A DNA stretch of 64,000 nt from Flammeovirgaceae bacterium (GTDB lineage Bacteria; Bacteroidota; Bacteroidia; Cytophagales; Cyclobacteriaceae): NCBI GenBank assembly GCA_015180985.1, contig CP054185.1:124001-188000 (forward strand), in the 5' to 3' direction. The translations under genes and the position numbers were made by a program. The notes beneath the pieces are model-generated. The model had not been told where the DNA came from. It ran no database searches and worked only from the letters and a program-made list of their open reading frames with translations. Below, in pieces: positions 15,278 to 60,712 of the stretch (the stretch's first letter is position 1; each line of letters opens with the position of its first letter).

Positions 15278-15291
15278 ATGATTTCAGTCAT
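15278..15291. promoter_or_regulatory. Candidate Crp/Fnr-type operator between ferredoxin and korA
   Basis: ATGATTTCAGTCAT fits the core TGAY-N4-RTCA also seen at usp, cco, nap and osmC. It lies 26 bases before the ferredoxin ATG and about 100 before korA. Unlike most of the others, I find no -7 element at the matching distance, so if it works it may repress ferredoxin or act from afar on korA. Confidence 0.35.
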
Positions 15292-31888: not shown

Positions 31889-31902
31889 GTGACTGAAGTC
31901 AT
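31889..31902. promoter_or_regulatory. Candidate Crp/Fnr-type operator before osmC
   Basis: GTGACTGAAGTCAT has the perfect core TGAC-N4-GTCA. Its centre is 29.5 bases before the first base of a weak -7 element CACCTTTA (31925-31932, 6 of 8 to TAnnTTTG). That spacing is within one base of the usp, cco and nap sites and suits an activator touching polymerase near -42. It lies between the chosen starts of osmC and the YitT gene. Confidence 0.5.
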
Positions 31903-33615: not shown

Positions 33616-34470
33616 TTATTTCCGATGCTTCACTACAAACGTTAACACCGGGCGTTTGCTGTGGTTTACCACATCTTCAGCAATACTGCCTGCCAGTACG
33701 TGCGCGAAGCCTGTGCGGCCGTGGGTGGCCATCGCTATCATATCAGCATGGATACTGTCGGCAAAATAAATAATACCTTCTTCCTCGGTAACATCGTTAA
33801 ACACATTAATGGTGTAATTTTTCAACTGCAGCTTTTTAGCAAAATCCTGCATGTATTTTTTTACTACGGCATCACGCTGAAAGTTGCCGGGTGTATTAAT
33901 GCGCACCAGGTGAATGGTTGAATCGTACATGGCCTGGGCGCGTTTTACAATACGGGAGAAAACTTCTTCATCCTTGCTCATGGAGGTAGCGTAAACGATG
34001 TTTTTAAAGTTCGTTCGCGTGGGTTTTTTCTGGATAGTGAGCACAGGGCACTTGGCATGGCGTACCACTTTTTCAGTGTTTGAGCCAATAATCATTTCGG
34101 TGGCACCGCTAACACCGGTTGTTCCCATTACCACCAAGTCAACTTTGTGTTCGGCAATAATGGTACGCATGCCGTGGAAAGGAGACCCGATTCGTAATTC
34201 AGGTTTAACGTTTACTCCGTTAAACACCGGGTCGGCCGCAAATTTGGCCATTTGTTTTTTTGATCGCTCTATGAGTTTCAACATAAACAACTTCTCCTCC
34301 ATGTCAGCGAATTGAATCTCACCGGTTACGGCAAAAGATCCTTTGGAACCTTCTTCTATAACGTGAAGTAATATCAACTCGGCACCGGCTTTTTTGGCGA
34401 TACCGGCCGCCACCTCGGCTGCCGTCTGGGCCGTTTTAGAGAAATCAATAGGTACAAGAATTTTTTTCAT
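33616..34470 (-). CDS. Universal stress protein, tandem two-domain type
   Basis: A cytoplasmic protein of the UspA family; members accumulate under stress, often low oxygen, and many bind ATP. Its 284 residues form two Usp domains (1-150 and 151-284). Both keep the nucleotide motif GxxGx9GS: GTTGVSGATEMIIGS in the first and GRTGFAHVLAGS in the second, so ATP binding is likely. A -7 candidate TATCTTTA (34492-34499, minus strand, 7 of 8) precedes it. Just upstream lies a palindrome GTTAG-TT-CTAAC (34511-34522) that does not match the Crp/Fnr-type sites. It lies 78 bases downstream of the second USP gene and close to the kinase/regulator pair. Confidence 0.92.
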   Translation of the reverse strand: MKKILVPIDFSKTAQTAAEVAAGIAKKAGAELILLHVIEEGSKGSFAVTGEIQFADMEEKLFMLKLIERSKKQMAKFAADPVFNGVNVKPELRIGSPFHGMRTIIAEHKVDLVVMGTTGVSGATEMIIGSNTEKVVRHAKCPVLTIQKKPTRTNFKNIVYATSMSKDEEVFSRIVKRAQAMYDSTIHLVRINTPGNFQRDAVVKKYMQDFAKKLQLKNYTINVFNDVTEEEGIIYFADSIHADMIAMATHGRTGFAHVLAGSIAEDVVNHSKRPVLTFVVKHRK

Positions 34471-34548: not shown

Positions 34549-34974
34549 TTAAGGTTGGGCCTGCATTTCAGGCACAATCAAAACCGGTACCGGGGCCTGG
34601 CCTATAAATCCTTCCAGGGTCATCCCTTTCTGTTCAATTATTTCAGAGGCCAGGCGTTGCCCGATTACCACAAACCCCACGCGGTTTGCCTGCACCGAAC
34701 TTTTAATCCGGTCTGAAAGAAATCCCACTTCGGCCCGGAATTCATAGGGTATCGAACCGTTCAGGCCAAGTTTTTTTTCCAGTTGTGCAAAATTTTCCTG
34801 GGCTTTTTTCACAATAGTCCTCCTGTAATCGGCAATGGTTTCATTTTCCGGAATAATCCGGTAGGCATACAAAACGATTAGCCGGGTATGAAAATGGGCA
34901 GCCAGATTAACAGCTGCCTTCAGAACAACAGGCGAATTCTCCGAAAAATCAAGTGCGCAAAGTACAGGGTCCAT
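34549..34974 (-). CDS. Universal stress protein, single domain, degenerate nucleotide motif
   Basis: A 141-residue UspA-fold protein (MDPVLCALDFSENSPVVLKAA). The usual GxxGx9GS ATP motif is not kept: the region reads GQRLASEIIEQKGMTLEGFI, so it may not bind ATP. It starts 109 bases from the divergent kinase gene; this interval holds two Crp/Fnr-type inverted repeats. Read from this gene, the sites are centred 30.5 and 52.5 bases upstream of a -7 candidate TATGTTAG (34990-34997), the same geometry as in front of the cbb3 operon. Confidence 0.88.
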   Translation of the reverse strand: MDPVLCALDFSENSPVVLKAAVNLAAHFHTRLIVLYAYRIIPENETIADYRRTIVKKAQENFAQLEKKLGLNGSIPYEFRAEVGFLSDRIKSSVQANRVGFVVIGQRLASEIIEQKGMTLEGFIGQAPVPVLIVPEMQAQP

Positions 34975-34989
34975 GCATGGTAACTAATG

Positions 34990-34997
34990 CTAACATA
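34990..34997 (-). promoter_or_regulatory. Candidate -7 element of the small USP gene
   Basis: TATGTTAG on the minus strand matches TAnnTTTG at 7 of 8. It is 16 bases before the ATG and 30.5 bases from the centre of the nearer operator. Confidence 0.45.
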
Positions 34998-35020
34998 CAG
35001 GGTTTGGCCGGGTTACGTGC

Positions 35021-35034
35021 TTGATATGCATCAT
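35021..35034. promoter_or_regulatory. Candidate Crp/Fnr-type operator, USP-proximal
   Basis: TTGATATGCATCAT matches the classical FNR consensus TTGAT-N4-ATCAA at 9 of 10 positions. Its centre is exactly 22 bp from the second site at 35043, about two helical turns, so two dimers could bind the same face of the DNA. Position suits activation of the USP promoter. Confidence 0.65.
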
Positions 35035-35042
35035 ACCAAAAA

Positions 35043-35056
35043 CTGATTTTTATCAT
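35043..35056. promoter_or_regulatory. Candidate Crp/Fnr-type operator, kinase-proximal
   Basis: CTGATTTTTATCAT keeps the perfect core TGAT-N4-ATCA (8 of 10 to the FNR consensus). Its centre lies only 20.5 bases before the kinase -7 candidate TATATTTC (35070-35077). That is ten bases closer than at the USP, cco and nap promoters, so it may repress the kinase/regulator genes or bind cooperatively with the other site. Confidence 0.6.
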
Positions 35057-35083
35057 GCCCGGTTGTTGCTATATTTCCACTCC

Positions 35084-36361
35084 GTGAACGAGCAGCCATT
35101 CAAGATACCTTTTGCCTCACCCGAAACGCTGAGCGAAATCTTTCAAAGTTCAGCCGAGGGGATTCTGATGGTGGACGAGGCCGGCATAATCCGGTTGGCT
35201 AATAAAGCATCTGAACTTATGTTTGGATACCAGGCCGGTGAACTGCCTGGTAAATCACTGGAGATATTGCTGCCTCAGCGTTACCGCGCAGGGCACGTAA
35301 AATACCGGGAGTCGTTCCGGCAGGCACCTGCGCCCCGCAAAATGGGTGTTGGTCGCGATTTGCTGGCTGTTCGGAAAGACGGTACCGAATTTCCGGTGGA
35401 AGTAAGCCTGAGTCATCACCGGATAAACAATCAGTTCATCGTAATTGCCTTTATCATTGACATTACCGAACGCAAAAAGGCTGAAGAAGCCGTAAAACGC
35501 AGTGAGGAACAATTACTGCTGTATGCTGCCGAACTGGAACGCAAAGTTCGCGCCCGCACCGATGCACTCAACAAATCCGTTGAAGACCTTGAGCGGGCTA
35601 ACCGGTTTTTACAGGAACAAATTGCCGAACGAAAAAAGGCGGAGGAAGAAGTAAAGCATGCCCTGGAACGCGAGCGCGAATTAAATGAACTGAAAAGCAA
35701 GTTCGTTTCCATTGCCTCACACGAATTCCGCACTCCGCTCAGCACGGTACTCAGCTCAGCTTCGCTTGTGATGCAGTACAAAGAAAAGGGCGACCTGGCA
35801 AAAATTGATAAACACATACAACGGATAAAATCTTCGGTAAGCCACCTGACCAACATCCTGAATGATTTTCTTTCGCTGGGCAAACTGGAGGAAGGCCGGA
35901 TTGACATTGCCAAAGAAACGATACCCCTGAGCGAGTTGCTGCACGAAGTTATTGAAGAAATGAAACCCCAGCTTAAAGAAAAGCAGAACCTTACGCTTCA
36001 GATCATGGGAAAGGAAAAACCCATATGTACTGATCCAAAGGTGTTACGCAATATACTGTTTAACCTCATCTCCAATGCCAGCAAATACTCCGAAGCGGGC
36101 AAGCCCATTGCTATCCACGTTACCTTCTGGGAAAATCATTTCGACATTGCCGTAATCGATCAGGGTATCGGCATCCCGAAAGAGGATGTAAAACACCTGT
36201 TTGAACGTTTCTTCAGGGCCAGCAATGCCGGCCAGGTTCAGGGCACAGGGCTTGGCCTGAACATTGTAAAACGGTATGTGGAATTATTAAACGGAGAAAT
36301 TAATTTTACCAGCCAGGAGGGAAAAGGAAGTACCTTTACCATTATACTGCCAACTACCTAA
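35084..36361 (+). CDS. Soluble PAS-domain histidine kinase with FixL-like sensor residues
   Basis: 425 residues from GTG 35084 (VNEQPFKIPFAS). An upstream in-frame ATG at 35021 would overlap both operators and the promoter. No membrane helix, so it is a cytoplasmic sensor. PAS domain 12-130; coiled coil 135-205; dimerisation domain with phospho-acceptor His213 (SHEFRTPLS); ATPase domain with N-box Asn331, G1 DQGIGIP and G2 GTGLGL. In the PAS domain, His71 (RAGHVKY) and Arg91 (MGVGRDL) are 20 residues apart, the same spacing as haem ligand His200 and distal Arg220 of Bradyrhizobium FixL as I recall them. Haem binding is thus possible, but similar PAS domains without haem exist. The stop overlaps the regulator gene (TAATG). 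Confidence 0.9.
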   Translation: MNEQPFKIPFASPETLSEIFQSSAEGILMVDEAGIIRLANKASELMFGYQAGELPGKSLEILLPQRYRAGHVKYRESFRQAPAPRKMGVGRDLLAVRKDGTEFPVEVSLSHHRINNQFIVIAFIIDITERKKAEEAVKRSEEQLLLYAAELERKVRARTDALNKSVEDLERANRFLQEQIAERKKAEEEVKHALERERELNELKSKFVSIASHEFRTPLSTVLSSASLVMQYKEKGDLAKIDKHIQRIKSSVSHLTNILNDFLSLGKLEEGRIDIAKETIPLSELLHEVIEEMKPQLKEKQNLTLQIMGKEKPICTDPKVLRNILFNLISNASKYSEAGKPIAIHVTFWENHFDIAVIDQGIGIPKEDVKHLFERFFRASNAGQVQGTGLGLNIVKRYVELLNGEINFTSQEGKGSTFTIILPTT

Positions 36362-37431
36362 TGCATACCATGAAAAAGATTCTGCTCATTGAGGATAACC
36401 ATGAAGTCCGCGAAAACACCAGCGAAATACTTTCGCTGGCGAATTATGAAGTAATTACTGCCGAAAACGGAAAAGTTGGCGTTGACCTGGCACAGAAAAA
36501 CATGCCCGACCTGATCATCTGCGACATCATGATGCCAGAACTCGATGGATATGGTGTATTGCACATCCTTAGCAAGAAACCTGAAACCGCCAGCATTCCG
36601 TTCATCTTTCTTACCGCCAAAACCGAAAAAGCCGACATCCGCAAAGGCATGACACTCGGTGCCGATGATTACCTGACCAAACCGTTTGATGACACCGACC
36701 TGCTAAATGCCGTGGAGACGCGACTTAACAAAGTGGCTCTCTTCAAAAAGCAGTATGAAGCAACCGCTTCAGGGCTCAACGAATTTATTGAAGATGCCCA
36801 GCGGGTTCTGAACTTAAAAGATCTGTGTAAAGACAAAAAAACAAGAGCATTTAAAAAGAAGGCAGGAATTTTTATGGAGGGTGAGCTTCCCAACTTTATC
36901 TACTTCTTACAAAAAGGAAATGTAAAGGCCTTTCGTACCAATGCCGATGGTAAAGAGTTTATTACCAATCTTTACACCACGGGGGATTTCTTCGGCTACG
37001 AACCGATCCTTGAAAACACCAATTACACTGAATCGGCTGTAGCCATGGAAGACAGCGAACTGATTGCCATACCCCGCCACGATTTTCTTACACTGTTGCA
37101 CAGTCACCCTGAATTATCGCGGTCTTTTGTATCGCTACTCTGTAAAAAAATTGAAGAAAAAGAATCGCAGTTGCTTACACTGGCCTATAATTCGGTGCGG
37201 CAACGAACAGCCGAAGCACTTTTGAAAGTACATCAGCTAAAGGAAGGTGAGTTAATGAATGTATCGCGCGATGACCTGGCTAAAATGGTGGGCACCGCCT
37301 CGGAATCGGTAATCCGGGTGCTCTCCGATTTCAGGGAGGAAGGTATTATTGACATTGAAAGCGGCAAGATAAAAGTACTTTACCCTAACAAACTGGAACA
37401 GGTAATTAAATGGAATGTGGCCCGGCATTAA
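36361..37431 (+). CDS. Response regulator fused to a Crp/Fnr-family transcription factor
   Basis: 356 residues (or 353 from the second ATG at 36370). Residues 5-125 are a receiver domain: acidic Glu11/Asp12, phospho-Asp55 (IICDIMMPE), Thr85, Lys107. Residues 150-270 are a cyclic-nucleotide-binding-type beta-roll (FMEGELPNFIYFLQKGNVKAF, YTTGDFFGYEPIL) and 280-345 a Crp-type winged helix with recognition helix ASESVIRVLSDF. Glu315 and Arg319 sit where CRP/FNR residues contact the TGA half-site. It has no FNR-type iron-sulfur cysteine set, so the signal should arrive as phosphate from the coupled kinase. In effect it merges FixJ and FixK into one chain. It probably acts at the TGAY-N4-RTCA sites nearby. 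Its stop overlaps the convergent SafE gene. Confidence 0.92.
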   Translation: MHTMKKILLIEDNHEVRENTSEILSLANYEVITAENGKVGVDLAQKNMPDLIICDIMMPELDGYGVLHILSKKPETASIPFIFLTAKTEKADIRKGMTLGADDYLTKPFDDTDLLNAVETRLNKVALFKKQYEATASGLNEFIEDAQRVLNLKDLCKDKKTRAFKKKAGIFMEGELPNFIYFLQKGNVKAFRTNADGKEFITNLYTTGDFFGYEPILENTNYTESAVAMEDSELIAIPRHDFLTLLHSHPELSRSFVSLLCKKIEEKESQLLTLAYNSVRQRTAEALLKVHQLKEGELMNVSRDDLAKMVGTASESVIRVLSDFREEGIIDIESGKIKVLYPNKLEQVIKWNVARH

Positions 37432-38099
37432 TGCAGCGGATAACACAGCACAGTTTTATCAATGGCGAATAGCCCCTCTATTGAAACACCACGCCAAATC
37501 ATGATAAAGGCCATGAGCCCAACAAAAACAAGTTGAATTTTTTTTACCGGAATCGGAATAACCCCTATAATGTTGGTGTACAACCAGGCTGTAACCAACA
37601 TGGCCGGCACGGTTCCAAGCCCAAATGCCAGCATAACCATTACACTGTTAATCCAGTTGGTTTGCACCAGTGAAAGTACAACAGCTGCATAGACCAATCC
37701 ACAGGGCAAAAAGCCATTCAGAACACCCATCAACACGGCCGAGCCTGCACTTCGCTGACGAATAAATTTTGAAATACCTTGCTTTAGAAAATTTATTGCC
37801 ATAAAAGTTTTTGGTAACACCCATCTTTCAACCTGTTTGAAAAGCAGAACACCCAATACGGCTAAACCCAGCATAATAGAAAGCCAGCCCTGCCATCCGC
37901 TGAGTTCAATCAGGTGGCCGAATAAACCAGCCATAAGGCCCAACAAACTGTAGGTAACAACCCGACCCGTGTTGTACAGCGCCCGGTTCAACACCAGCTT
38001 TTTATTATTTGGGGCCTGAACCTGCACAGCCAGCGGGCCACACATACCGATGCAATGGAGGCTGCCTGTAAATCCCAGAATAAAGGCCGCAGTTAGCAT
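37428..38099 (-). CDS. SafE/DsbD-like membrane protein of the cbb3 locus
   Basis: 223 residues with about six membrane helices, of the sulfite-exporter TauE/SafE (DsbD_2-like) family that habitually sits beside cbb3 oxidase genes in this phylum. The N-terminal SLHCIGMCGPLAV has two cysteines in the first helix and a second motif GFLPCGLVYAA lies mid-protein; paired cysteines of this sort occur in thiol or metal transfer proteins. A role in copper delivery or cytochrome maturation is inferred from position, not shown. It is the last gene of the cco operon (32 bases after ccoH) and overlaps the regulator stop on the other strand. Confidence 0.85.
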   Translation of the reverse strand: MLTAAFILGFTGSLHCIGMCGPLAVQVQAPNNKKLVLNRALYNTGRVVTYSLLGLMAGLFGHLIELSGWQGWLSIMLGLAVLGVLLFKQVERWVLPKTFMAINFLKQGISKFIRQRSAGSAVLMGVLNGFLPCGLVYAAVVLSLVQTNWINSVMVMLAFGLGTVPAMLVTAWLYTNIIGVIPIPVKKIQLVFVGLMAFIMIWRGVSIEGLFAIDKTVLCYPLH

Positions 38100-38131: not shown

Positions 38132-38563
38132 TTAGATTACTACAAACTTCTCAAGATAGTATTCTTTACCTTCCATTGTCCATTCCATTTTTACCCGATA
38201 AGCACCCGGCCTGAGGTTACTAACCCGAAACATCTGCACAGAGTCTGCCGAGGCACTTAATTTAAACTGCTGATCGAGCTTATCAGAAGATGGCCGGAAC
38301 AATTGTAACTCACCTTGTTCTATAAACCTGGCTTCCGGAAAGTAGACCTTTAAATAGGCGTTCTCAACAAAAGTGATTTCTGGCTTAACCAGTAGTTGTT
38401 CGGTATTGTTTTTACGATCGAGTTTTTGCTGGTACGCCAGTTCATCCTGATAATAGGTTCTGGATACCAGGTTTACATCCTGCCGCATGCTAATTGCAAC
38501 AATACTGCCGATGAAAACAGCAAACAACACAAACGAAACAATTATCCACTTGCCCCAATTCAT
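38132..38563 (-). CDS. ccoH: FixH/CcoH family cbb3 oxidase assembly protein
   Basis: 143 residues with one N-terminal membrane helix (about 5-27) and a periplasmic beta-sandwich domain; this is the FixH layout. The segment after the helix, MRQDVNLVSRTYYQDELAYQQKLD, is the family signature. FixH-type proteins help assemble or stabilise the cbb3 oxidase complex. It follows ccoG by seven bases and precedes the SafE-like gene on the same transcript. Confidence 0.9.
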   Translation of the reverse strand: MNWGKWIIVSFVLFAVFIGSIVAISMRQDVNLVSRTYYQDELAYQQKLDRKNNTEQLLVKPEITFVENAYLKVYFPEARFIEQGELQLFRPSSDKLDQQFKLSASADSVQMFRVSNLRPGAYRVKMEWTMEGKEYYLEKFVVI

Positions 38564-38570
38564 AGTTTCT

Positions 38571-40019
38571 CTATCGTCCTCCTTTTACACGGTCGCGATG
38601 CGAATGCACCGGCCCTACAAACTTGGCTTTTACAATTTCTATCTGCTCACCGCCCTTGTAAACACCCACCTTCACCACCATTTTGGCAGATGATACCAAT
38701 TCGGCCGGAATTTCAATGAAGCAAACACCTTTATACAACCCCCCTGGCGTAACCACAATTTCCTGATCGCCAACTTTACGGATGGTTACACCTGGAGGCG
38801 ATTCAGCCTTAAGTGTTAATTCAATAGCATCAAAAGTTTTATTGACAAACTCAATATTATACAAATTGGTGATTTTACCGTCATCCGTACGCTGAAATAA
38901 TGTGCCAGGGACTTTTAATATAGTTGTTTCAATATCAGACCGGGTAGCGATCATAAAACTGAGTAACCCCACGAGCGCGGTAAGTACAACCGAATAGCCC
39001 GCCACACGCGGTGTAAATAATTTTTTAACACCATCTTTTATTGAATTGTACGATGCAAACCGGATAAGTCCTTTTGGCTTACCGATTTTTACCATCACCT
39101 CATCGCAGGCATCAATGCAAGCCGTACAGTTAACACATTCCAGTTGTGTGCCGTTGCGGATGTCAATGCCGGTCGGGCAAACATGTACGCACAGTTTACA
39201 GTCGATGCAATCGCCCCGGTTTGCCTGAGTTTCTCCTTTTTTTATTTTTCCCCGGGGTTCTCCGCGCAACCAATCGTACGCTACAACAATACTGTCTTTA
39301 ACCAGTAAAACACCCTGAAGCCTTCCATACGGGCAAACCGCAATACACGCTTGTTCCCTGAACCAGGCAAAAACAAAATAAAATACACCTGTAAAAGCCA
39401 CCAGACCGATAAAGCCGGCCAGGTGTTCAGTGGGTGGCTGAGAAACGATTTCTTTTACCTGCTCAATCCCGATGAGGTACGCCATTGCCGTATGCGAAAT
39501 GATCACCGAAATCAGGATAAAGACTACTTGCTTGCCTGCCTTTTTAAAAATTTTTCGGGGAGTCCACGGTTCCTGGTTTAGTTTGCGCTGCTGGTTGGCA
39601 TCGCCTTCAATCCAGTATTCAATTTTTCTGAACACCATTTCCATGAACAAGGTTTGCGGGCAGGCCCACCCGCACCACACGCGGCCAAATACCACTGTAA
39701 ACAAAATAATAAATACAAAAAGCGTGATGAGCGTAAGGGCCAGCAAAAAGAAATCCTGAGGCCAGAAAACCTGACCGAAGATGACAAACCTGCGTTCAAA
39801 CAGGTTGAGCATAAGCAAGGGTTGTCCCCCGATTTTTATAAACGGCCCTGCAAAGAAAATACTAAGTAGGGTAACAGTTACTGCGATGCGGTAGTTATGA
39901 AGTTGGCCTGCAGGCTTTTTTGGATATATCCAAACACGTTTGCCCTTTTCATCGACCGTGGCAATGCTGTTCCGGAATTCCTCATCGTATTGATAAAAGT
40001 TTTCACTATCCGTGGTCAC
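38571..40019 (-). CDS. ccoG: CcoG/RdxA iron-sulfur membrane protein, cbb3 oxidase maturation
   Basis: CcoG is a membrane cupric reductase that supplies Cu(I) during cbb3 oxidase assembly. The 482 residues have about five helices, a CPQTLFME motif with CGWACP, a cytoplasmic double ferredoxin domain (CIDCKLCVHVCPTGIDIR and CVNCTACIDACDE) plus CIAVCPYGRLQG, and a C-terminal periplasmic Ig-like domain (about 370-480). All the family's cluster cysteines appear present. It lies 56 bases downstream of ccoP in the same operon. Confidence 0.95.
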   Translation of the reverse strand: MTTDSENFYQYDEEFRNSIATVDEKGKRVWIYPKKPAGQLHNYRIAVTVTLLSIFFAGPFIKIGGQPLLMLNLFERRFVIFGQVFWPQDFFLLALTLITLFVFIILFTVVFGRVWCGWACPQTLFMEMVFRKIEYWIEGDANQQRKLNQEPWTPRKIFKKAGKQVVFILISVIISHTAMAYLIGIEQVKEIVSQPPTEHLAGFIGLVAFTGVFYFVFAWFREQACIAVCPYGRLQGVLLVKDSIVVAYDWLRGEPRGKIKKGETQANRGDCIDCKLCVHVCPTGIDIRNGTQLECVNCTACIDACDEVMVKIGKPKGLIRFASYNSIKDGVKKLFTPRVAGYSVVLTALVGLLSFMIATRSDIETTILKVPGTLFQRTDDGKITNLYNIEFVNKTFDAIELTLKAESPPGVTIRKVGDQEIVVTPGGLYKGVCFIEIPAELVSSAKMVVKVGVYKGGEQIEIVKAKFVGPVHSHRDRVKGGR

Positions 40020-40075: not shown

Positions 40076-40990
40076 TTACATGGAGGCTCCTTCGCTTGTG
40101 GCCGGAGTGGTTTCTTCCTTGTACAATTCACCCTGCGGAGCTTTCGGGTTTGGCGGGTTGCTTCCCTTAATGCTCTTGATGTAAAAGGTAACATCGCGTA
40201 TCTGCTGCGGAGATAACACCGGACCCCACGGAATCATTCCCTTCTCCTGCACTCCGTTTTTAATTACTTTATAAATATCGGTAACGCTGCCGCCATGAAG
40301 CCAGTATTCATCCGTCAGGTTGGGGCCAATGTTCCCCTGCCCGTCAGGCATGTGGCATGAGGCACAATTCACCACATACACCTGCCGGCCGTTTTTAATT
40401 ATTTGTTCATCCGCTTCATATACCAGGTTATTTTCATCAATGGCCAGTGCAGGCTGGGAGGCCAGCAGTTTTGCTTTTTGTTCCTCTGCAATAGCCACTT
40501 CGTTTTGATATTCCTGGTCCATCAGCGGCAACGAGTCGGTAACATGGTAAACAACCAGGTAAATAGCCCCCCAAACAATTGAACCGTAAAACAGCCAGGT
40601 CCACCAGGGCGGCAGGTGGTTATCCAGTTCCTTTATCCCATCGTAATTGTGGTCGAGCATGATTTCTGATTCCTTCTCAATGGGCCGGTAGCCGTTTATC
40701 CAGTTCCAGAATTTTGTCCAGGCTCCTGGTTCAGGTACATACACCTTACCCGTTTGCGCAGCTTTCTCCTCTTCGGCCTTGCGGATGAAAACATTTAACA
40801 CCTGCAGCATGTAAATGGCCACAATAATTACCAGCAAGGCTACTACAAATACAAAGGCAATCACAACATAAAACGGAAACAACGGATCGCTTAAGGGGTC
40901 GCTCCAGAAGCTTCGGGCGGGTGTACCCTCCTGCGCCAAAAGCGGGCCGCCCAACAGGAATAAACTGATTAGGGATAGTATCTTTTTCAT
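40076..40990 (-). CDS. ccoP: cbb3 oxidase cytochrome c subunit CcoP, single-haem form
   Basis: The electron-entry subunit of the cbb3 oxidase. 304 residues: an N-terminal hydrophobic leader (1-20), a helix at 38-65, the FixP N-terminal motif HNYDGIKELDNHLPPWW (114-130) with a second helix (130-150), then one cytochrome c domain with CASCH (209-213) and probable axial Met252. Proteobacterial CcoP normally has two haem domains; only one CxxCH exists here. Its ATG overlaps the ccoQ stop (ATGA on the minus strand). Confidence 0.94.
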   Translation of the reverse strand: MKKILSLISLFLLGGPLLAQEGTPARSFWSDPLSDPLFPFYVVIAFVFVVALLVIIVAIYMLQVLNVFIRKAEEEKAAQTGKVYVPEPGAWTKFWNWINGYRPIEKESEIMLDHNYDGIKELDNHLPPWWTWLFYGSIVWGAIYLVVYHVTDSLPLMDQEYQNEVAIAEEQKAKLLASQPALAIDENNLVYEADEQIIKNGRQVYVVNCASCHMPDGQGNIGPNLTDEYWLHGGSVTDIYKVIKNGVQEKGMIPWGPVLSPQQIRDVTFYIKSIKGSNPPNPKAPQGELYKEETTPATSEGASM

Positions 40991-41192: not shown

Positions 41193-43346
41193 TTACTGGT
41201 TACCCGTTGACAAATTATTATCGGCTGTCTTTGATGCTTTAATATCCTTACCCAACCGCTGCAAGTAGGCGATCAGCGCAATAATTTCAGCATCCGGCTC
41301 TACTTCAATGCCCTCCAACTGCAGGTTTTCGGCCATGCGCCTGGCTTGCATATCCAAATCATCATTAGCCCTGCTCTCGTATCCTTCTTCATACGGTACC
41401 CCTATCGTGCGAAGGGCCTTTATTTTGGAAGCCGTGGTACTCTTATCAATCACCTGCTCAAACAGCCACGGATAGGCCGGCATAATCGAACCGGTTGATA
41501 CGGCATCGGGCGCTAGCATGTGGTTGTAATGCCAGCTATCCGAATACTTGCCGCCCAGGCGGTGCAAGTCGGGGCCGGTACGTTTTGACCCCCACAGAAA
41601 CGGATGGTCGTAAACATATTCACCCGACTTGGAGTATTCGCCACCCAGCGGATCGTACCGCTCCACCTCCGAACGGAACGGGCGAACGAGTTGCGAGTGG
41701 CAGCTTACGCATCCTTCGCGTATGTAAATATCGCGGCCGTGCAGTTCAAGCGGAGTGTAGGGCTTAACACTGGAAATAGTCGGCACATTTGATTTAATCA
41801 GGAAAGTGGGCACCATCTCAACAATACCGCCAATCAGTATTGACACCAGGGCCAAAGCCGAGAATAATACCGGTTTGCTCTCCAGCCAGTGGTGCCAGCC
41901 GCCACCGCTTGATTCTGTTTTAACCAGCGGGGCCGCTTCGGCTGCTTCGTTAGCAATGAAACTTCCGGCATACGCGGTTTTAACCAGGTTATAGGTCATT
42001 ACAATTGCGCCTGTCAGGTATAGCAAACCGCCAAATGCACGCAGCATGTGCATGGGTAAAATCTGCACGGTGGTTTCAAGAAAGTTTTTGTATACCAAAA
42101 AGCCTTCGGGGTTAAACTCTTTCCACATCAGGCTTTGGGTAACACCCGAGATATACATCGGAAGGGCATAAAAGATGATACCCAGGGTGCCAATCCAGAA
42201 ATGGAAGTTGGCCAGTTTATTCGACCAGATTTTGGTATTCCACATGCGGGGTACCAGCCAGTACAGCATACCGAAAATCAGGAAGCCGTTCCAGCCCAGA
42301 CCGCCTACGTGTACGTGCGCCACAATCCAATCGGTAAAGTGGGCAATGGCATTTACATTTTTAAGCGACAGCAACGGACCTTCCAGTGTAGCCATGCCGT
42401 ACGCGGTAACGGCCACCACCATAAACTTCAGCACTACATCTTCGCGCACGCGGTCCCACGCTCCGCGCAGGGTCATTAACCCGTTAAGCATACCGCCCCA
42501 TGAAGGCGCAATAAGCATCACCGAAAATACCGTTCCGAGTGATTGCGCCCAATCCGGTAATGTTGAATAAAGTAAGTGGTGCGGACCAGCCCAGATGTAT
42601 ATAAAGATCAGCGACCAGAAGTGTATTATCGATAACCGGTATGAATATACCGGGCGGTTGGCTGCTTTGGGCAGAAAGTAGTACATCATGCCGAGGTAAG
42701 GTGTGGTAAGAAAGAAAGCCACGGCATTGTGCCCATACCACCATTGCACCAGGGCATCCTGCACACCGGCATACCAGGAGTAACTTTTGAACAAGCTTAC
42801 CGGCATTTCGAAGGAATTAACAATATGCAGTACAGCTACGGTAACAAACGTGGCGATGTAAAACCAGATGGCCACATACATGTGCTTTTCCCTGCGGTTC
42901 AGGATGGTTCCGATCATGTTCCAGCCAAAAACAACCCAGATTAACGTAATGGCAATGTCAATGGGCCATTCCAGTTCGGCATATTCTTTTGATGTGGTAA
43001 GCCCCAGCGGTAAGGTAATGGCAGCGGCAAGAATTATCAATTGCCAGAGCCAAAAGTGAATCCAGCTGAGTGTGTCGCTGAACATGCGGGTTTTAAGCAA
43101 CCGCTGCATAGAATAATACACTCCGGCAAACATGGCATTGCCTACAAAGGCAAAGATTACCGCATTGGTGTGCAGCGGCCTGATACGCCCGAATGATGTG
43201 TACTGAAGTTCGAAATTAAATACCGGCCAAACCAACTGGAGGGCAATGGTAAGGCCCACCAACATGCCCACCAGGCCGAAAATAACGGTGGCAATAATAA
43301 ATGCTTTTACGATTTTGTTATCGTAACTGAATTTGTCGAGTTCCAT
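41193..43346 (-). CDS. ccoNO: cbb3-type cytochrome c oxidase, fused subunits I and II (CcoN-CcoO)
   Basis: The catalytic core of a high-affinity terminal oxidase that reduces O2 and pumps protons. 717 residues. CcoN part (1-475): about 12-14 helices with metal ligands visible at His59 (RPLHTN), His206 (WWYGHN), His256/257 and His344/346 (AHVHVGG). After a short linker with ESSGGG (479-483), the CcoO part (485-717) has one helix and a haem c site CVSCH (546-550) with a later Met-rich IMPAYPWLF. The fusion replaces two genes. It opens the minus-strand operon ccoNO-Q-P-G-H-safE. Two Crp/Fnr-type sites lie upstream at 43425 and 43447. Confidence 0.97.
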   Translation of the reverse strand: MELDKFSYDNKIVKAFIIATVIFGLVGMLVGLTIALQLVWPVFNFELQYTSFGRIRPLHTNAVIFAFVGNAMFAGVYYSMQRLLKTRMFSDTLSWIHFWLWQLIILAAAITLPLGLTTSKEYAELEWPIDIAITLIWVVFGWNMIGTILNRREKHMYVAIWFYIATFVTVAVLHIVNSFEMPVSLFKSYSWYAGVQDALVQWWYGHNAVAFFLTTPYLGMMYYFLPKAANRPVYSYRLSIIHFWSLIFIYIWAGPHHLLYSTLPDWAQSLGTVFSVMLIAPSWGGMLNGLMTLRGAWDRVREDVVLKFMVVAVTAYGMATLEGPLLSLKNVNAIAHFTDWIVAHVHVGGLGWNGFLIFGMLYWLVPRMWNTKIWSNKLANFHFWIGTLGIIFYALPMYISGVTQSLMWKEFNPEGFLVYKNFLETTVQILPMHMLRAFGGLLYLTGAIVMTYNLVKTAYAGSFIANEAAEAAPLVKTESSGGGWHHWLESKPVLFSALALVSILIGGIVEMVPTFLIKSNVPTISSVKPYTPLELHGRDIYIREGCVSCHSQLVRPFRSEVERYDPLGGEYSKSGEYVYDHPFLWGSKRTGPDLHRLGGKYSDSWHYNHMLAPDAVSTGSIMPAYPWLFEQVIDKSTTASKIKALRTIGVPYEEGYESRANDDLDMQARRMAENLQLEGIEVEPDAEIIALIAYLQRLGKDIKASKTADNNLSTGNQ

Positions 43347-43446: not shown

Positions 43447-43460
43447 ATGATTTTCGTCAG
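43447..43460. promoter_or_regulatory. Candidate Crp/Fnr-type operator, cbb3 operon, distal
   Basis: ATGATTTTCGTCAG has the core TGAT-N4-GTCA (7 of 10 to the FNR consensus). Its centre is exactly 22 bp from the proximal site, the same spacing as the usp/kinase pair of sites. Confidence 0.5.
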
Positions 43461-58096: not shown

Positions 58097-58110
58097 ATGA
58101 CTTTGGTCAT
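58097..58110. promoter_or_regulatory. Candidate Crp/Fnr-type operator of the nap operon
   Basis: ATGACTTTGGTCAT is a perfect inverted repeat with 5-base arms and a 4-base centre. Its centre is 29.5 bases before a -7 candidate TTTATTTG (58133-58140, 7 of 8), within one base of the usp and cco geometry. It lies in the divergent porin/napD region, so it could control both. Confidence 0.65.
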
Positions 58111-58378: not shown

Positions 58379-60712
58379 ATGGAAAGGAAAGCCTATACCG
58401 TTAACGATCAATCGCGCAGAAACTTTCTCAAGCAACTGGCGGCCACATCGGCCATCAGCGCGGCAACGGCCATGCTGCCTGAAGTTACATTTGGAGGAGT
58501 TGAGAAGTTTTCAGGAAACGATAAACTCACCTGGAAAAAATCGCCCTGCCGTTTTTGCGGAGTAGGCTGCGGTTTGCTCATTGGCTTGCAAAACGGTAAG
58601 GCCGTAGCGGTTAAAGGCGATCCCGACAGCACGGTAAACAAAGGGCTGTGCTGTGTGAAGGGCTACCACTCAGTAATGGCATTATACGGGAAAGACAGGC
58701 TCAGAAAACCTCTAGTAAAGCGCAACGGCAAATGGGTAGAAGTAACCATGACCGAAGCCCTGGATTTGGTGGCCAGCAAAATGAAGGAAACTATCGACAA
58801 GCATGGCAAGGATGCAGTGGCCATGTATGGCTCGGGGCAGTGGACCATCCCCGATGGCTACGTGGCCAGCAAATTCATGAAAGGTGGCATTGGTACAAAT
58901 AACCTTGAAGCCAATGCACGCCTGTGTATGGCCAGCGCAGTAACCGGCTTTATGACTTCCTTCGGACTGGATGAACCCATGGGTTGTTATGAGGACATTG
59001 ACCATGCCGATGTATTTGTATTGTGGGGCAACAACATGGCCGAAATGCACCCTGTGCTTTTCTCACGTTTGTTAGACCAACGATTAAAACGAAAAAGCAT
59101 CATCATCGATTTAGGCACTCGCACCACACGTACCAGTCTGGCAGCCGATAAATCCATACTCTTCCAACCTCAGGGCGACCTGGCCTTAGCCAACGCCATC
59201 TGCTACGAAATCATTACCAATGGATGGATAAACCGTGGTTTTGTAGAAAAACATTGTGTATTCAAAAAAGGGAAAACCAATATCGGGTACGGGCTTGAAG
59301 ATAACTTTCAGTTTACCGATGAGCCCGGTGATATCAGTTTCAATGATTTCAAAAATTTCCTGAACGATTATGCCCCTGTAAAAGCATCGGCATTGTGTGG
59401 CGTATCGGTTAAAGACATCAAGTATCTCGCACAATTTTATGGCGACCCGAACAAAAAAGTGATGTCGCTATGGTGCATGGGCCCCAATCAACATACGCGG
59501 GGGACCTGGATTAATAATCAGATATACAACATCCACCTGCTCACCGGAAAAATTTCCACTCCGGGCAACTCGCCATTTTCGCTTACCGGCCAGCCGAGCG
59601 CCTGCGGTACCGTACGCGAAGTAGGAACACTCACGCATCTGCTCCCGCACGGAACAGTAACCAACGAAAAAGATCGCAAACTTGCCGCAGAAATCTGGAA
59701 GGTGCCTGTAGAAAAAATTCCGGCTAAGCCCACCTTCCATACTGTTGAAATGTTTCGTGCATTAGACCGTGGCGAAATCAAATTCATGTGGATACAGGTA
59801 ACCAACCCGATGGTTTCCATGCCTAACCTGAAACGCTATCGGAACGGTGCATTGAAAGAAGACCGGTTTATCGTGGTGTCGGATGTGTACCCCACACCCA
59901 CTACCGATGTAGCCGATGTGATTCTGCCCTCAGCCATGTGGATTGAGCGCGAAGGCATGTTCGGCAACTCCGAAAGACGTACGCAGCATTTTGAAAAAAT
60001 GATTGAACCCCAGGGTGAGTGCATGAGCGACACCTGGCAGATTATTGAAGTAGCCAAACGCATGGGTTATGGAAATCTTTTTCCCTGGACAAAAGAAAGC
60101 CACATCGAAGAAATCTGGAAAGAATATACCCGGTTCCATCACGGACCGGAACATGCCATGGCCAGTTACGAAGAACTGAAAGCAAGGCCGGGCATTCAGT
60201 GGCCTTATGTTAATGGAAAAGAAACCAAGTGGCGCTACCACGCCAAGTACGATCCCGCAGCAAAAGGCGATTCATTTGACTTTTATGGCAAGCCCAATGG
60301 CAAAGCCTGGATATGGGCAAGGCCTTTTGAACCGGCACCGGAAGTTCCTGATAAGGAATATCCATATTGGCTCTGCACCGGCCGGGTGGTTGAGCATTGG
60401 CATACCGGCTCCATGACAAGGCGGATTCCTGTGTTACATCAGGCGGTACCACATGCCTATGTGGAGCTGAATGTGCAGGATGCAACAAGTATGAACATCC
60501 GCACAGGCGATAAAGTGAAACTGGTTTCGCGCAGGGGTGAACTTGTATTACCCGCCTCTGTAAATGAACGGGGCCAGCCTCCGCGCGGCCAGGTATTTGT
60601 TCCCTTTTTTGATGAGGCCCTGTTGATTAATGAACTTACCATTGATGCATTCTGTCCGATTTCGCGCGAGCCCGAATATAAAAAGTGTGCGGTAAAAGTG
60701 ATGAAAGCCTGA
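58379..60712 (+). CDS. napA: Periplasmic nitrate reductase catalytic subunit
   Basis: A periplasmic molybdoenzyme that reduces nitrate to nitrite. 777 residues. Twin-arginine signal SRRNFLKQL (12-20) for Tat export. The 4Fe-4S site is Cys57, Cys60, Cys64 and Cys92 (CRFCGVGCG, GLCCVKGY); Cys91 beside it is extra. The molybdenum ligand is Cys183 in ARLCMASAV, matching the NapA pattern. Later motifs GSGQWTIPDGY, DEPMGCYEDIDHAD and LWGNNMAEMHP are NapA-specific rather than those of formate dehydrogenase. It is followed three bases later by the NapB-like gene, with the electron-transfer genes downstream. Confidence 0.96.
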   Translation: MERKAYTVNDQSRRNFLKQLAATSAISAATAMLPEVTFGGVEKFSGNDKLTWKKSPCRFCGVGCGLLIGLQNGKAVAVKGDPDSTVNKGLCCVKGYHSVMALYGKDRLRKPLVKRNGKWVEVTMTEALDLVASKMKETIDKHGKDAVAMYGSGQWTIPDGYVASKFMKGGIGTNNLEANARLCMASAVTGFMTSFGLDEPMGCYEDIDHADVFVLWGNNMAEMHPVLFSRLLDQRLKRKSIIIDLGTRTTRTSLAADKSILFQPQGDLALANAICYEIITNGWINRGFVEKHCVFKKGKTNIGYGLEDNFQFTDEPGDISFNDFKNFLNDYAPVKASALCGVSVKDIKYLAQFYGDPNKKVMSLWCMGPNQHTRGTWINNQIYNIHLLTGKISTPGNSPFSLTGQPSACGTVREVGTLTHLLPHGTVTNEKDRKLAAEIWKVPVEKIPAKPTFHTVEMFRALDRGEIKFMWIQVTNPMVSMPNLKRYRNGALKEDRFIVVSDVYPTPTTDVADVILPSAMWIEREGMFGNSERRTQHFEKMIEPQGECMSDTWQIIEVAKRMGYGNLFPWTKESHIEEIWKEYTRFHHGPEHAMASYEELKARPGIQWPYVNGKETKWRYHAKYDPAAKGDSFDFYGKPNGKAWIWARPFEPAPEVPDKEYPYWLCTGRVVEHWHTGSMTRRIPVLHQAVPHAYVELNVQDATSMNIRTGDKVKLVSRRGELVLPASVNERGQPPRGQVFVPFFDEALLINELTIDAFCPISREPEYKKCAVKVMKA

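Follow-up and report, generated by a model that had tools for sequence, protein, structure and literature searches.

A PAS histidine kinase and a one-piece receiver-Crp/Fnr regulator beside a cbb3 oxidase operon in a Flammeovirgaceae bacterium: a probable low-oxygen switch of Bacteroidota

The stretch analysed here, which we call the window, comprises 64,000 nucleotides of contig CP054185.1 (positions 124,001 to 188,000) from a Flammeovirgaceae bacterium (assembly GCA_015180985.1) and is numbered from its first letter. It contains two overlapping genes, one for a histidine kinase with a PAS domain and one for a regulator in which a receiver domain is fused to a Crp/Fnr module. A preliminary description had read this pair as a FixL-like kinase coupled to a merged FixJ-FixK regulator, placed between stress genes and the operon for a cbb3 oxidase. 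The genes at the locus are the following.

33616..34470, minus strand: double universal stress protein (Pfam Usp, 2 stretches)
34549..34974, minus strand: universal stress protein, transcribed away from the kinase gene (Pfam Usp)
35084..36361, plus strand: PAS histidine kinase, proposed oxygen sensor (425 amino acids, GTG start; Pfam; partner of the receiver-Crp protein in relatives)
36361..37431, plus strand: receiver-Crp/Fnr fusion regulator (356 amino acids; Pfam; family search)
37428..38099, minus strand: DsbD_2 membrane protein, end of the cbb3 cluster
38132..38563, minus strand: FixH/CcoH
38571..40019, minus strand: FixG/CcoG
40076..40990, minus strand: FixP/CcoP
41193..43346, minus strand: fused FixN-FixO (CcoNO) cbb3 oxidase subunit (one gene: COX1 + FixO)

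Coordinates and Pfam domains agree with the described arrangement of a soluble PAS kinase and a receiver-Crp/Fnr regulator encoded by overlapping genes, the overlap being one base, since the regulator's ATG at 36361 and the kinase stop codon have one A in common. The placement between stress genes and the cbb3 operon also stands, with Usp, Usp, DnaJ and OsmC on one side of the pair and DsbD_2, FixH, FixG, FixP and FixN-FixO on the other. No Rfam RNA, riboswitches included, was found at the gathering threshold in 34900-37600. The pair is a real, conserved system and more than a chance neighbourhood, because the pair, its order and its neighbours recur in related genomes, and because 65 of 66 scorable partner kinases of such fusions share an aligned histidine, as set out below.

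The regulator (Pfam Response_reg 7-119, cNMP_binding 162-249 and HTH_Crp_2 281-347) was aligned with 14 homologues, giving 15 sequences, and two of its elements are located as follows.

36523..36525, plus strand: Asp55 codon, predicted receiver phospho-acceptor (invariant in the 15 aligned sequences)
37261..37350, plus strand: Crp helix-turn-helix, residues 301-330 (Pfam Crp 301-330)

Like Asp55, Glu11 and Lys107 of the receiver are invariant in this alignment, and Asp12 and Thr85 are nearly so; the acidic pair, the phospho-Asp, the Thr and the Lys of a two-component receiver are all in place. In the helix-turn-helix Glu315 and Arg319 are invariant. The regulator has three cysteines, none of them arranged as CxxC, and therefore lacks the FNR-type motif; with a cNMP-type domain, a Crp helix-turn-helix and no cluster cysteines, it has the make-up of a cluster-free Crp-Fnr regulator of the FixK-like kind. 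The Pfam domains, the invariant Asp55 and the absence of CxxC thus bear out the earlier observation of a receiver joined to a complete Crp/Fnr module without iron-sulfur cysteines. The stretch presumed to correspond to the phosphate-binding Arg-Ser pair of cAMP-binding Crp reads TESAVAMED and has no Arg. The best NCBIfam models for the receiver were RpaB, PhoB and PleD, none above its cut-off, and in the one Hymenobacter swuensis record compared the public annotation of the regulator is just 'response regulator'.

Pfam divides the kinase into PAS 16-117, PAS_9 25-129, HisKA 204-271 and HATPase_c 317-424. It has no membrane-type hydrophobic stretch (top 19-residue Kyte-Doolittle mean 1.0). The parts that matter for sensing and phosphotransfer are these.

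35129..35476, plus strand: PAS domain of the haem-PAS type, residues 16-131 (phmmer, AlphaFold2 model, Foldseek)
35294..35296, plus strand: His71 codon, candidate proximal haem ligand (aligned with the FixL His and with FG214 His156)
35342..35344, plus strand: Met87 codon (aligned with FG214 Met172)
35354..35356, plus strand: Arg91 codon, candidate distal O2-binding arginine (FixL Arg220 position in the alignment)
35720..35722, plus strand: His213 codon, predicted phospho-acceptor (HisKA match and position)

The FixL-like spacing of His71 and Arg91 noted earlier was confirmed, the two residues being 20 apart and aligning without gaps with the His and Arg of the FixL haem PAS domain. A phmmer search of PDB sequences with the PAS domain found FixL (2e-16), FG214 (10jx, 1.6e-15) and DosP (6e-9), with related chains down to 1.1e-7 and the next match only at 0.037. 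An AlphaFold2 model built from 14 aligned sequences reached a predicted local distance difference test score (pLDDT) of 91.6; a single-sequence model (pLDDT 43) was set aside. When the predicted fold was compared with the PDB by Foldseek, the best 30 matches were all haem PAS proteins (FixL, DosP, FG214), so that the structure prediction did not place the domain clearly among non-haem PAS domains, the outcome that would have told against the preliminary description. FG214 of Fimbriimonas ginsengisoli has a PAS domain that binds haem b, with His156 as proximal ligand in the crystal, His175 as the likely distal ligand and Met172 as a possible alternative (PMC13060918, a preprint, in the portion available); in our alignment His156 falls on His71, Met172 on Met87 and His175 on Gly90.

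Among 70 partner kinases, 66 of which have a scorable PAS domain, the haem-ligand His is aligned in 65, the remaining one being gapped there, and Arg follows at +20 in 48; Arg91 is kept in all 15 other loci of the window's genus. Eleven PAS stretches of the window's own genome, some of them partial and fewer than two Pfam searches listed, could be aligned to the profile, and only the window's PAS carries both His and Arg, one further stretch having the His and no Arg. Taken together, sequence and model make it probable that the kinase PAS is an oxygen sensor of the haem-PAS type.

The domain-architecture search suggested by the preliminary description found the receiver-Crp fusion to be common in Bacteroidota and no one-off. 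At E 1e-60 it is present in 22 of 39 near genomes and in 16 of the 17 genomes of the window's genus, its own included; L348 (G014) is the sole member of the genus without it at this threshold. In a phylum-wide sample, with five candidates scored per genome, the fusion was found at E 1e-50 in 56 of 395 genomes and 38 of 170 genera, and all carriers belong to the window's class or are nearer. A scan of named genomes gave at least 80 loci, at least 13 of which match over nearly their full length; among the matches listed, these 13 are all Bacteroidota, judged by record titles, and the other 67 match over about half at most, mainly in the receiver.

Wider stretches around the sample loci, together with the 13 named loci, form a set of 79 loci with one full-length fusion each; the stretches differ in length and some are near-duplicates (L091 and L182). 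A kinase-like gene on the same strand lies directly upstream of the fusion in 70 of the 79, and for the remaining nine it is divergent in L173, just downstream in L059 and absent from the vicinity in seven. Within the fetched stretch a Usp gene occurs in 38 loci and a cbb3 gene in 32. Genes for cbb3 oxidase and hemN are typical low-oxygen genes, and the neighbours identified include two hemN genes and one for a heavy-metal P-type ATPase. One neighbour guessed to be a heavy-metal P-type ATPase is actually a pyrophosphatase. On the Hymenobacter swuensis plasmid pHsw1 (L209 7263-8458) two annotated group III truncated hemoglobins adjoin the kinase/receiver-Crp pair; one of them, run against Pfam, gave no match at E 1e-5. 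In L039 (5055-9573) and similar loci of the genus, the pair is separated from the cbb3 operon by unnamed genes, accompanied in L039 by one for a TonB-dependent receptor.

The nearest relatives of the Crp half are stand-alone Fnr-like proteins with CxxC. A search with the Crp half only, in which all candidates were scored, covered 20 genomes with ccoNO and without a fusion match. In all ten of those from the window's class the best match was a stand-alone protein with an N-terminal CxxC, encoded in six cases within 7 kilobases of ccoNO by coordinates. Among the matches read in the ten genomes from outside the class, none showed an N-terminal CxxC; five weak matches there were left unread, and the best match of one genome (G395) has unread letters and no N-terminus. 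When 20 fusion genomes were searched with the CxxC protein as query, eight had both proteins (G182, G162, G026, G063, G036, G124, G021 and G071); G012 was left out of this count, the sole CxxC of its stand-alone relative preceding the likely start. In the window's own genome a CxxC Fnr was not seen among the matches. The CxxC protein is thus present in 8 of 20 fusion genomes versus 10 of 10 fusion-less genomes of the class (Fisher p 0.0016, or p 0.009 once three other genomes of the window's genus are left out), in a comparison of hand-picked genomes whose two groups were searched with different queries. The eight genomes with both show that fusion and CxxC Fnr do not strictly exclude each other. 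In a Crp tree of 57 rows, drawn without the protein of G071, the CxxC proteins and that of G012 form a clade (support 100/99) beside the fusion Crp halves, and the joint set of 48 is supported at 83/97. The N-terminal cysteine motif of FNR is absent from the window's regulator and present in these stand-alone relatives.

Upstream of three ccoNO genes we noticed the repeat TGAC-N4-GTCA, which was relaxed to TGAYnnnnRTCA, an inverted repeat of the FNR/FixK type and the predicted box of the regulator. Six sites in the window precede genes.

15279..15290, no strand: box upstream of a korA-like gene (2-oxoacid:acceptor oxidoreductase alpha)
31890..31901, no strand: box between a yitT-like gene and osmC (barely within the longest yitT reading)
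35022..35033, no strand: box TGATATGCATCA between usp and the kinase GTG start
35044..35055, no strand: second box TGATTTTTATCA, 22 base pairs beyond TGATATGCATCA
43448..43459, no strand: box upstream of the ccoNO operon
58098..58109, no strand: box between a gene of 439 amino acids and napA (also in both other genus genomes with this napA)

The whole window holds ten sites versus 3.3 expected, and none of 100 shuffles reached ten. The six in front of genes (two at usp/kinase and one each at osmC/yitT, ccoNO, napA and the korA-like gene) depend on the starts used, as longer yitT and kinase readings would cover three of them. The identities of NapA and of the oxidoreductase behind their boxes were confirmed. 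The napA nitrate reductase gene itself (58379-60712) is patchy, occurring in 3 of 17 genus genomes, the other two copies being 96-97% identical.

At the loci at hand, nine rows with short upstream DNA being left out, the box stands in 16 of 21 ccoNO promoters (21 sites versus 0.385 in first-order resampling). Fresh ccoNO promoters from fusion genomes have it in 18 of 20 cases (22 sites versus 0.49 expected at uniform base use), and those from fusion-less genomes in 10 of 20, namely 8 of 10 in the same class and 2 of 10 outside it. By class, the box is thus found in 26 of 30 promoters versus 2 of 10 (p 0.0002). In the 15 other loci of the window's genus, wherever the gene start lies in the stretch, the box stands ahead of all 15 UspA1 genes, 9 of 15 kinase genes (with starts as predicted), 5 of 8 ccoNO genes, all 6 osmC genes and none of 12 UspA2 genes. 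With the window included, all 3 napA genes and 12 of the 15 korA-like genes have it, and it is kept in the genus although its spacer changes. The korA-like promoter lacks the box in L348 and likewise in two fusion-bearing members, L345 and L347. The classical FNR box TTGAN6TCAA, with spacers of 5-7 allowed, was absent from the ccoNO, usp and kinase promoters scanned; one of this type, TTGATTTTAATCAA, was found in a fusion-less genome.

From these observations we propose that the pair is probably a haem-PAS two-component switch that runs an FNR-type low-oxygen regulon and is convergent with FixL-FixJ-FixK. The proposal is a sequence-based one, drawn from domain make-up, conserved phospho-residues and His, pairing, neighbourhood and boxes. 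The kinase PAS would hold haem on His71, with Arg91 above the distal face. Binding of the ligand to the haem at high O2 would keep the kinase off; at low O2 His213 would be phosphorylated and would pass the phosphate to Asp55 of the receiver-Crp protein, whose Crp half would then bind TGAYnnnnRTCA boxes and switch on ccoNO-P-G-H, napA, the korA-like gene, usp and the pair's own operon. In this way the two proteins most likely fill the role that a direct iron-sulfur sensor has in relatives, because the Crp half of the regulator is kin to the CxxC Fnr-like proteins of related bacteria.

Several observations weigh against this proposal. In a PAS tree of 90 rows and 119 columns, in which many forks are unresolved, 15 partner kinases group with five FixL or FixL-like PAS domains of alphaproteobacteria (98/95), 'FixL-like' being our own label for the Phenylobacterium and Azospirillum kinases. 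This grouping itself speaks for the proposal; the window's PAS, however, lies outside this clade, its genus forming a clade of its own (98/93) amid other partners and common PAS domains. At the position of the FixL arginine that binds a haem propionate (Arg206 of BjFixL, according to the part of PMC10765370 at hand) the window has Ser77; Arg stands there in 9 of the 15 FixL-type partner kinases and in none of the 51 others. The distal position has a residue other than Arg in 18 of 66 partner kinases, Met in six of them. After the top 30 Foldseek matches come mostly flavin light-oxygen-voltage (LOV) domains, so the fold alone is no proof of haem. No cbb3 gene was found in the fetched stretch of 47 of the 79 fusion loci. 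As for the box, its pattern was fixed only after three promoters had been seen, four of the ten sites in the window are intragenic, and within the class it does not follow the fusion (18 of 20 versus 8 of 10, Fisher p 0.58). The box was ruled out as a hallmark of the fusion, as fusion-less genomes of the class share it.

Three other explanations were considered. That the kinase senses nitric oxide or the haem redox state instead of O2, with the output unchanged, is rather unlikely in view of the cbb3 and hemN neighbours, both low-oxygen genes. In its favour, FG214, a haem PAS similar in sequence to the window's, has been described as a redox switch whose haem is mainly bis-His (PMC13060918, preprint, available portion), Met87 matches its Met172, Met is among the substitutes for the distal Arg, and there are the annotated truncated hemoglobins beside the Hymenobacter pair and the box at napA. 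However, the distal Arg is constant in the window and the 15 other genus loci, and in FixL the Arg at this position (Arg220) holds O2 (PMC10765370, same part). A PAS domain that binds no haem, with another ligand or none, in a pair that would respond to stress in general next to usp, osmC and dnaJ, seems to us quite improbable. Such PAS sequences are very common, 461 plasmid records matching (the His was not checked in them), and three PAS domains of one Legionella adelaidensis kinase, whose ligand is not known, also carry His and Arg; common PAS domains can hold both residues, and the residue pair alone is therefore weak evidence. The Usp neighbours would suit a stress switch too. Against it stand the nearest solved relatives of the PAS, which are haem proteins, and the near invariance of the His among partner kinases.

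The third explanation, in which a different Crp/Fnr protein acts on the boxes and the cbb3 operon and the pair controls other genes, is also unlikely. The fusion-less genomes of the class with a box ahead of ccoNO imply that another Crp/Fnr protein is presumably able to use it, and the window's own genome has six further cNMP-binding places. However, no CxxC Fnr was seen among that genome's matches, and three other Crp proteins of that genome match the Crp half of the fusion at only 24-28% identity. Furthermore, outside the class, where the matches read had no N-terminal CxxC, the box is rare, and two boxes lie directly ahead of the pair itself.

Our preferred reading of the pair as a haem-based low-oxygen switch can be extended, tentatively and with somewhat more doubt than belief, to an evolutionary one: an FNR-type regulator of Bacteroidota may have exchanged its direct iron-sulfur sensor for a receiver served by a separate haem kinase, with box and cbb3 target unchanged. 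It would have done so independently of rhizobia, and the outcome would be a counterpart of FixL-FixJ-FixK made of two genes, found across the class and in many genomes the sole such regulator. The receiver-Crp design, widespread in Bacteroidota, may serve in place of the iron-sulfur sensor that usually detects oxygen. For Bacteroidota with the fusion (56 of the 395 genomes sampled) the pair is a candidate low-oxygen system whose box and regulon are predicted. Sensor swapping could also be studied here in a naturally occurring comparison, in which kindred Crp/Fnr outputs with one box are run either by cysteine-bearing proteins or by a kinase and phosphate. A literature search found nothing on a receiver-Crp fusion, a weak negative, as several queries were very restrictive and the subscription literature was mostly uncovered, and nothing on how fusion-bearing Bacteroidota sense falling oxygen to induce cbb3 oxidase; the fusion is unmentioned in the accessible sections of PMC8694187, PMC1183210 and PMC9603854.

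How far does the pair resemble known systems? FixJ consists of a receiver and a LuxR-type helix-turn-helix, and no such output follows the window's receiver, which is joined to cNMP_binding and HTH_Crp_2. In a kinase-core tree made by a quick method and with long branches, the catalytic halves of partner kinases form one group (Shimodaira-Hasegawa approximate likelihood ratio test 97), which also takes in two rows labelled 'Other' from L173, itself a fusion locus; three FixL or FixL-like kinases fall outside. Descent from FixJ and FixK was rejected on the receiver models, this tree and the Crp tree. Of the preliminary reading as FixL with a merged FixJ-FixK, the sensor of haem-PAS type, the one-piece receiver-Crp output and the link to cbb3 stand, and the identity with FixL, FixJ and FixK is not supported, for PAS clade, kinase core, receiver and Crp half alike.

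Other relatives share parts of the design. FG214 has a similar PAS sequence and the aligned proximal His, but is a one-component HTH-PAS protein with mainly bis-His haem and no Arg at the distal position; DosP of E. coli is a haem PAS protein whose His and Arg share the window's spacing, but is a phosphodiesterase and no kinase. The CxxC Fnr-like proteins of the class come closest to the Crp half in our tree and have a similar recognition helix and the same ccoNO box; unlike the fusion, they have no receiver and have cysteines fit for direct iron-sulfur sensing. In Rhizobium leguminosarum an hFixL-FxkR-FixK route and the oxygen sensor FnrN both act on fixNOQP (PMC7888657, as far as its available text goes), and by analogy these two routes parallel the two regulator types proposed here for Bacteroidota.

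The likeness to the FixL-FixJ-FixK and hFixL-FxkR-FixK systems of rhizobia lies in the kinase of haem-PAS type, the receiver, the Crp-type output, the nearby cbb3 genes and the adjoining usp; on pSymA of Sinorhizobium meliloti usp diverges from fixL-fixJ, followed by ccoNOQP, an order comparable to that of the window. Unlike FixL-FixJ-FixK, the window's output is a single protein, the kinase core and receiver are not those of FixL and FixJ, and the PAS stands off the FixL clade without the propionate Arg. The kinase/receiver-Crp pair may therefore work like FixL-FixJ-FixK and yet looks independently assembled, because its PAS lies outside the FixL clade, its kinase core stands apart, its receiver is not of the FixJ kind and its Crp half is nearest to CxxC Fnr-like proteins.

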